Of a DNA stretch of 32,202 bases, positions 2,129 through 3,279 are shown piece by piece. The DNA comes from Chloroflexota bacterium (lineage in GTDB: Bacteria > Chloroflexota > Dehalococcoidia > Lucifugimonadales > UBA826): assembly GCA_002728195.1 (NCBI GenBank), contig PBWI01000084.1, positions 11,367 through 43,568 on the forward strand. Reading direction: 5' to 3'. Positions within the stretch are counted from its first letter, which is position 1. Each line of letters starts with the position of its first letter. Below the pieces are notes generated by a model, which made no database searches, had not been told where the DNA came from, and was given only the letters and a program-made list of their open reading frames with translations. Position numbers and translations under genes: made by a program.

Positions 2129-2881
2129 TTATTGAGCCGTAATTCCTCCGTCAATAACTAATTCTGAGCCTGTCATATACGAAGATTCATCCGAAGCCAA
2201 AAATAAAACTCCTAAAGCCACGTCTTCTATGGTTCCTATTCGGCCAAGAGGTATTCTGGATATTGAGTTTTGTCTCCCTTCAGGTGTGGAAAGATTGTCC
2301 GCGATCATATCAGTGTCAATTGGTCCTGGGTGAACAGAATTTGCTCTGATATTGTCAGAGGCGTGTTGTATAGCAGTAAATTTAGTAAACAATCTCACCC
2401 CTCCTTTCGACGCACCGTATGCCCCGCCCCCTTGATTACCAACAAGTCCAGCTGTAGATGAAATATTAATTATTGATCCGCCCCCTGAGTGCCGCATTTC
2501 TGGGATAGCATATTTTGTTCCCAAAAAAACCCCCTTAAGATTAACTGACATAATTAAATCAAATTCCTCGTCTGAGGCTTCTTCAATTGGTACTTTACTG
2601 TATATACCTGCATTGTTAACCAGTATGTCTAAACTTTGATATTTTTCCATAGTGAATTTTATGCAGTTAATCCAACTTTCTGAAGAAGTTACATCCAGAT
2701 GAACGGCTGAAGCTATTCCTTTGTTTTTTACAATATCTAGAGCGTTGGACTCACATGACTCAATATCTAGGTCTGCCAAAACGACTTTGGCACCTTCACT
2801 TGCAAATAGGGCAGCTTCAAATGCACCTTGTCCCTTTCCAGCGCCTGAAATTATCGCCACTTTGTTATCCAGTCTTCCCAT
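2129..2881 (-). CDS. SDR-family NAD-dependent oxidoreductase
   Basis: A classical short-chain dehydrogenase/reductase of 250 residues, the usual length. Visible motifs are the cofactor glycine motif SGAGKGQG (12-19), D37 at the end of strand beta-2 (ADLD), which favours NAD(H) over NADP(H), NNAG (89-92), the catalytic serines near 141-142, Y155 and K159 (YGASK), and HPGPIDTDM after the active site. The sequence resembles the hydroxysteroid dehydrogenase / 3-oxoacyl reductase branch. Substrate cannot be told from sequence, and this family is often misnamed as FabG. The start is ATG at 2881, with GAGGT about 10 bases upstream. It is divergent from the small gene at 3037, and the 155-base space between them holds the promoter for that gene. 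Confidence 0.9.
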   Translation of the reverse strand: MGRLDNKVAIISGAGKGQGAFEAALFASEGAKVVLADLDIESCESNALDIVKNKGIASAVHLDVTSSESWINCIKFTMEKYQSLDILVNNAGIYSKVPIEEASDEEFDLIMSVNLKGVFLGTKYAIPEMRHSGGGSIINISSTAGLVGNQGGGAYGASKGGVRLFTKFTAIQHASDNIRANSVHPGPIDTDMIADNLSTPEGRQNSISRIPLGRIGTIEDVALGVLFLASDESSYMTGSELVIDGGITAQ

Positions 2882-2977: not shown

Positions 2978-3006
2978 TTGACAGAACACTTGTTCTGTTC
3001 TAAAAT
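2978..3006 (+). promoter_or_regulatory. Near-consensus sigma70-type promoter of the small gene at 3037
   Basis: TTGACA at 2978-2983 and TAAAAT at 3001-3006 are separated by exactly 17 bases. The predicted transcript start is near 3013, giving a leader of about 24 bases with AGGA at 3026-3029, seven bases before the ATG. This is the strongest promoter-like sequence noticed in the window. The spacer is occupied by an inverted repeat listed separately. Confidence 0.7.
2983..2996. promoter_or_regulatory. Candidate LexA (SOS) operator
   Basis: AGAACACTTGTTCT is an inverted repeat of the form GAAC-N4-GTTC, with flanking A and T that extend the symmetry. This is the Gram-positive SOS box, also reported for LexA of the Chloroflexota member Dehalococcoides. 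It starts on the last base of the -35 element and fills the 5' part of the -35/-10 spacer, a classic place for repression. The call rests on pattern and position only; lexA is not in the window. Confidence 0.5.
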
Positions 3007-3036
3007 GTTCTAAATCGAATTTTCCAGGATGTAAAT

Positions 3037-3279
3037 ATGAATGAAGCAACACAATTGACACTATCTATAAAGGATGACAAAAAAAATCATCCAACTTTTC
3101 AAAATGGCTTAAACATAAATAACGGCCAAAAGGTTAAGTATTTAGGGAATGTTAGTGGGGGCCCGCTCACTGGCAGCAAGGGAATAATCAAGAAACTTTA
3201 CGCAAATAAGGCAGTAGTTGATATGGGATTGGTGGGAACTTGGAATGTTCCATACTATTTTCTGTCAGAGACCGCATAA
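3037..3279 (+). CDS. Small SH3/KOW-like protein, unknown function
   Basis: An 80-residue soluble protein. The first 27 residues look polar and flexible. Residues 28-78 form a compact glycine-rich, beta-rich stretch: GQKVKYLG, GPLTGSKGIIKKLY, KAVVDMG, then WNVPYYFL. The pattern of a glycine turn, G-x-I-x-x-L, a valine strand and a W-x-V-P ending resembles KOW/SH3-like barrels that bind nucleic acid or ribosomes. That is a fold-level impression, not a family match. The start is ATG at 3037, supported by AGGA seven bases upstream and a strong promoter at 2978-3006. A candidate SOS box in that promoter suggests induction by DNA damage. It ends 5 bases before the convergent hydrolase gene. No cysteines, signal peptide or membrane segment are seen. 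Confidence 0.7.
   Translation: MNEATQLTLSIKDDKKNHPTFQNGLNINNGQKVKYLGNVSGGPLTGSKGIIKKLYANKAVVDMGLVGTWNVPYYFLSETA

Follow-up and report, generated by a model that had tools for sequence, protein, structure and literature searches.

A LexA-type promoter upstream of a small, predicted KOW-like protein in a Dehalococcoidia genome and its relatives

An uncharacterised 80-residue protein is encoded behind a promoter containing a palindromic SOS-type box, raising the questions of whether this box is a genuine LexA site and what the protein controlled by it might do. The window, which is the whole stretch of 32,202 nucleotides that was analysed, is part of a 1.7-Mb, 110-contig SAR202-cluster (Dehalococcoidia) MAG whose named relatives are MAGs of the SAR202 cluster and of other Dehalococcoidia/Chloroflexi. 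The original prediction placed the box AGAACACTTGTTCT at 2983–2996 inside a TTGACA-17-TAAAAT promoter with a gene for an 80-residue protein downstream, and re-reading of the sequence confirmed the box, the promoter and the ORF (3037–3279, + strand; Table 1). Its further claim that this is the strongest promoter of the window was borne out, with 11 of 12 consensus positions matched here and no other site above 10/12 in two overlapping scans of the whole window. The first A of the box is also the last A of the -35 element. Beyond the original prediction, the half-site of the palindrome recurs twice more, as GTTCTA and TGTTCTA; these repeats, spaced by 10 or 11 bases, flank the -10 element and form a composite element together with the palindrome. 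In the family to which the window belongs the small gene stands alone, with a divergent short-chain dehydrogenase/reductase (SDR) gene upstream and a convergent alpha/beta-hydrolase gene downstream. A comparison of 39 loci, several of them short, placed the SDR family next to the small gene in 27, among them loci of families with a downstream FtsZ gene.

Table 1. Positions of the promoter elements and genes in the window
Feature	Position	Strand	Basis
Sigma-70-type promoter: TTGACA 2978-2983, 17-base spacer, TAAAAT 3001-3006	2978..3006	+	Scan; conserved in 14 family genomes
LexA-type (SOS) box AGAACACTTGTTCT, palindromic, within the -35/-10 spacer	2983..2996	.	Motif search; same box type at lexA and ImuB-like gene
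Second half-site copy (GTTCTA), running into the -10	2997..3002	+	Conserved, almost private to the small-protein promoter
Third repeat TGTTCTA, one helical turn on, at the expected transcription start	3006..3012	+	Conserved, almost private to the small-protein promoter
80-aa protein: flexible N-terminal tail with QLTLSI (residues 6-11), linker, predicted KOW/SH3-like barrel (~25-80)	3037..3279	+	ORF, alignment, model
Short-chain dehydrogenase/reductase (SDR), divergent, frequent neighbour of the small gene	2129..2881	-	Domain search and neighbourhood comparison

Conservation of the composite promoter

The bare motif GAACN4GTTC, which is the LexA consensus of Gram-positive bacteria, has a single copy in the window; shuffling gives an expectation of 0.32, with at least one copy in 29 of 100 shuffled windows. 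The original estimate of roughly one chance match per two windows was thus slightly high. Nor is the motif enriched genome-wide, with 15 sites compared to 21 for a reversed control pattern. Of these 15 sites, 13 overlap ORFs of 90 aa or more, the other two lying in the promoters of the small gene and of an ImuB-like gene. Conservation gives a different picture. Across 14 family genomes the 35-base block TTGACAGAACAnnTGTTCTGTTCTAAAATGTTCTA shows a mean column identity of 97%, compared to 50% in the upstream and 57% in the downstream flank, and all 39 orthologue promoters examined carry the composite exactly or nearly. With 27 bases specified, 38 of these promoters score between 20 and 27, 25 of them reaching the full 27, and the highest score among 234 shuffles was 18/27. 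In the remaining promoter (L061, G030) the composite is located directly before the start codon, and the transcript may be leaderless.

A search of 250 genomes of the order with the exact composite, GTTCTGTTCTA-N3/4-TGTTCTA, identified 37 occurrences in 36 genomes, and by coordinates every one of the 37 lies immediately beside a member of the small-protein family; the reversed control gave no match in the same 250 genomes. One genome (G009) contains two copies of the small gene (L015 and L202), each with an exact composite promoter. The box therefore stands above chance because it is conserved at all 39 orthologue promoters and not because the bare motif is rare. The reading that the box resembles an SOS site by accident and regulates nothing, as might be suggested by an expectation of about 0.3 bare motifs per window and by the lack of genomic enrichment, is rejected as extremely improbable given this promoter conservation, the divergence of the flanks around the retained block and the exclusive association of the exact composite with orthologues.

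A few other promoters contain the looser pair GTTCTA-N3/4-TGTTCTA. An Rv2578c-family radical SAM gene cut by a contig end (L197, G041:C46, 1480-1896) has the composite promoter TTGACAAGAACGGTTGTGCTGTTCTATTATGTTCTA, and no orthologue of the small protein was found in the G041 genome. Glyoxalase/VOC genes in two genomes of one family (L194 in G045 and L195 in G089) have promoters of the form TTGAC..GAAC..GTTC-[-10]-TGTTCTA and are possibly further members of the regulon of the small gene. Genes for a 68-aa membrane-like protein and a DUF433 protein (L192 and L193) lie behind GTTCTA-pair promoters in G055, a genome in which the small-protein family was undetected. Further looser-pair sites (G043, G026, G076, G009:C3, G015:C1 and G051:C15) look like chance, with no clear -35 or box context.

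LexA-type boxes at lexA and the ImuB-like gene, and the recA promoters

A lexA gene is present in 87 of 98 genomes, comprising the relatives and the genome of the window itself, which has one. In all 12 family lexA promoters examined a box with one mismatch to GAACN4GTTC lies inside the -35/-10 spacer (AGCACACTTGTTCT in the window's genome), followed in 11 of the 12 by a second box of the form GAACATWAGTRC. Since several per cent of 100-base stretches are estimated to contain a one-mismatch site by chance, the assessment relied on position and conservation. Outside the family, 7 of 8 lexA regions have some site with at most one mismatch within 320 bases, looser spacings being allowed, a count that is weak alone; G025 has none. 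For the Y-family gene termed ImuB-like, a label for divergent PF00817 matches, an exact AGAACN4GTTCT was present in the spacer at all nine family loci examined (two further family matches were left out), with two N in the copy from the window's genome. The recA promoters were different, with an exact box in none of 13 usable family promoter regions and a conserved AGAACAnnTGT next to the -35 in all 13. In L131 and others this asymmetric element adjoins a TTTACT-like -35 and resembles a half-degenerate LexA-like site. Outside the family one of eight recA regions has an exact box, the recA counts being based on 21 usable of 22 loci (L135, with a short upstream region, was left out, and G012 was counted twice as two contigs). 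The comparison proposed originally, of the box with those at lexA and recA, is borne out at lexA, where the motif type is the same, and gives a weaker picture at recA. Of the grounds for refutation named originally, loss of the box at orthologues and a different motif at lexA were both looked for and not found.

Because the same type of box is found at lexA and the ImuB-like gene, and because the box is kept at orthologues, LexA control of the window gene is likely on the basis of these sequences. In common with other GAACN4GTTC-type SOS promoters the palindrome occupies the -35/-10 spacer; the window promoter differs in its two extra GTTCTA repeats flanking the -10, which are nearly private to the small gene. 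Several distant relatives show a decayed right half of the palindrome (GTaCT, GTcCT, GTgCT) with the GTTCTA repeats retained; these repeats may therefore be more important than the LexA box. This pattern, the restriction of the exact composite to the small gene (37/37) and the GTTCTA pairs with a poor box at the VOC genes of G045 and G089 and at the two G055 genes would all be consistent with control mainly by a dedicated regulator that reads TGTTCT direct repeats, in which case the LexA-like palindrome would be a by-product of the half-site and the gene would not belong to the SOS response. However, every one of the 16 family sites has an exact palindrome with only CT, AG, AT or N at its two central positions, a pattern compatible with a symmetric dimer site, and the same type of box is present at lexA and the ImuB-like gene, making control mainly by a dedicated regulator unlikely. 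LexA control is the reading retained below.

The small protein and the linked FtsZ paralogue

The small gene was found in 46 of the 98 genomes. A family profile matched 9 of 393 genomes of the class, all within the same order, and 58 of 250 genomes of the order, one of these matches (G539, E 9.3e-4) being marginal and with an internal stop. A phage or mobile origin was considered and rejected, as phage records yielded no match, viral contigs contained no relative and PHROGs gave only matches of E >0.1. No curated name for the family was present in Pfam, NCBIfam or PHROGs, and the window protein gave no match to the SOS division inhibitor families (SulA, YneA, SosA, SidA) in Pfam/NCBIfam, an absence that is weak evidence. 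No description of the gene was found in the literature searched on LexA/SOS in Dehalococcoides, Chloroflexi and SAR202, most subscription papers lying outside the search.

An alignment of 36 members consists of a variable tail followed by a conserved core with invariant residues G30, V33, Y35, G37, G42, P43, G49, W69, P72 and L76. AlphaFold2 predicted a five-strand barrel (mean pLDDT 83.5) preceded by a less confident segment at residues 1-20 (mean pLDDT 61-68). The nearest folds were KOW, NusG, Tudor and other SH3-like barrels, with a best Foldseek E of 0.013 and Z of approximately 8-9 (best 9.1) against KOW, NusG and Tudor chains, values that are ordinary for small barrels; the predicted fold thus supports the original suggestion of a possibly SH3/KOW-like protein. 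The resemblance to KOW/NusG/Spt5 domains lies in this predicted small five-stranded barrel. The differences are that the protein is free-standing with a motif-bearing tail and that the window protein reaches no Pfam curated cut-off, the only match being PF21230 (E 0.026, 14.8 bits versus 27). Weak matches to KOW5_SPT5 (E 0.00066) and KOW (PF00467, E 0.041) were obtained for one other member each.

A further feature beyond the original prediction is a tail resembling beta-clamp-binding peptides. The motif Q[LMIVF]x[LMF] is present in the tails of 34 of 36 orthologues and absent from the other two; 1000 shuffles gave 3.0 members on average and 10 at most. These counts rest on 36 chosen sequences that are a subset of all family matches. 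Tail forms include QLTLSI, QLKLPV, QMEFPI and QLxMPGMP. Published beta-clamp-binding motifs are QLxLF/QLxLxL (PMC4564189), QLPLWG in mycobacterial ImuB (PMC10421592) and QLSLPL in Hda (PMC3836487). The window tail QLTLSI fits the QLxLF/QLxLxL type in a flexible segment, with I instead of L at the last position. As in Hda and ImuB, a QLxLP-type hexapeptide lies in a flexible region, here of a small protein that differs in having only a small barrel and no AAA+ or polymerase domain; binding to the clamp is predicted from the motif.

An alternative is that LexA control is real and the QLx[LM]P tail is another type of short linear motif, for example one for RNA polymerase or a division protein, with the small protein taking part in transcription elongation like a KOW/NusG factor. 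The presence of KOW, Spt5 and NusG barrels among the nearest folds and the weak KOW5_SPT5 match of one member would be consistent with this, as would the continuation of the tail as PGMP or similar in most order-level members, which is unlike the cited clamp motifs. On the other hand, the tail fits the published hexapeptide form and resembles the C-termini of DinB proteins from the same family (QLRFEGL, QMRFEGL or QLRFAGL), and it is retained in family members without a linked FtsZ. A role in elongation is accordingly regarded as possible, if somewhat unlikely, and docking on the clamp as the preferred reading of the tail.

Linkage to an FtsZ paralogue is the third feature that the original prediction did not include. 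Within the 98-genome set, 31 genomes that carry an orthologue lie outside the window's family, and in 18 of these the small gene is immediately followed by an FtsZ gene in the same orientation; where the intervening distance was measured (11 cases), it ranged from 7 to 294 bases. These proteins resemble FtsZ in scoring above the TIGR00065 cut-off (345-370 bits versus 295.2; 5/5 scanned) and in keeping GGGTGTG and NxDFAD (NVDFAD) in 14/14. They differ in lacking the C-terminal PPF[LM]R peptide (PPFLR), which is present in none of 13 complete linked FtsZ sequences compared to 18 of 20 others, and in forming a separate clade, the 14 sampled sequences making up one side of a 100/100 branch. The FtsZ counts derive from 34 chosen sequences, with L059, ended by the locus edge, left out of the tail count. 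The genome of the window has a single FtsZ with the C-terminal tail peptide and no FtsZ linked to the small gene, so FtsZ cannot be needed for the role of the small protein. Control of this single ftsZ by LexA was rejected, as no LexA-like site was present in the 330 bases upstream.

A possible damage-responsive operon

It appears moderately probable that the locus is an SOS promoter under LexA repression serving a single small protein, which acts at forks via the clamp and has an FtsZ partner in many relatives. This reading builds on promoter conservation, gene association, fold prediction, the tail motif and FtsZ linkage, and would entail LexA binding, clamp binding, co-transcription and division control. 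LexA bound to the palindrome between the -35 and -10 elements would block RNA polymerase, and DNA damage would free the promoter through RecA-stimulated cleavage of LexA, as the sites and the general SOS scheme suggest. The extra GTTCTA repeats may serve as a second operator, either for more LexA contacts or for an unknown partner. Once produced, the small protein would dock on the beta sliding clamp by its N-terminal QLxLx/QLxMPG peptide, and its KOW-like barrel, judging from motif and predicted fold, may act at replication forks. The FtsZ paralogue is probably encoded on the same transcript in many relatives; it could polymerise but, having no tether peptide, would disturb ring assembly, so that the operon would brake division during DNA repair; in the window's family this partner is absent and the small protein would act alone. 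The comparative evidence for occlusion by LexA is strong, clamp docking is suggested by motif and fold, and the FtsZ step by linkage and the missing tail only.

SOS regulation and FtsZ inhibition are already known kinds of control. SOS cell-division checkpoint proteins include SulA, YneA and SidA, and also SosA; such checkpoints are known mostly from walled bacteria, with inhibitors acting on FtsZ or on septal wall synthesis. The present system is similar in that a small product lies behind a damage-type box and, in many relatives, beside a division gene, and differs in that the product is a predicted KOW-like barrel and the linked gene is itself an FtsZ paralogue. SAR202 bacteria are reported to be without ftsW, ftsI and peptidoglycan (PMC11994032). 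In such cells there would be nothing for inhibitors of septal wall enzymes to act on, which makes a brake directed at FtsZ plausible. A wider proposal is an SOS checkpoint without peptidoglycan, in which a LexA operon would supply a clamp-binding KOW-like protein at stalled forks together with a tetherless FtsZ that enters the assemblies of normal FtsZ and holds up division; only the clamp-binding half would have been kept in the window's family. This proposal is tentative and considered rather unlikely.

The literature searched on LexA/SOS, SAR202 FtsZ, second FtsZ proteins and small division inhibitors, most subscription papers lying outside that search, contained no private composite operator, no KOW-like protein with a clamp motif and no FtsZ paralogue linked to SOS control. 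A precise promoter and a precise peptide are now available as test objects. If the reading is true, a LexA-type operon that joins a clamp-motif protein to an FtsZ paralogue would show how SAR202 bacteria, reportedly without peptidoglycan, might couple DNA damage, replication and division.
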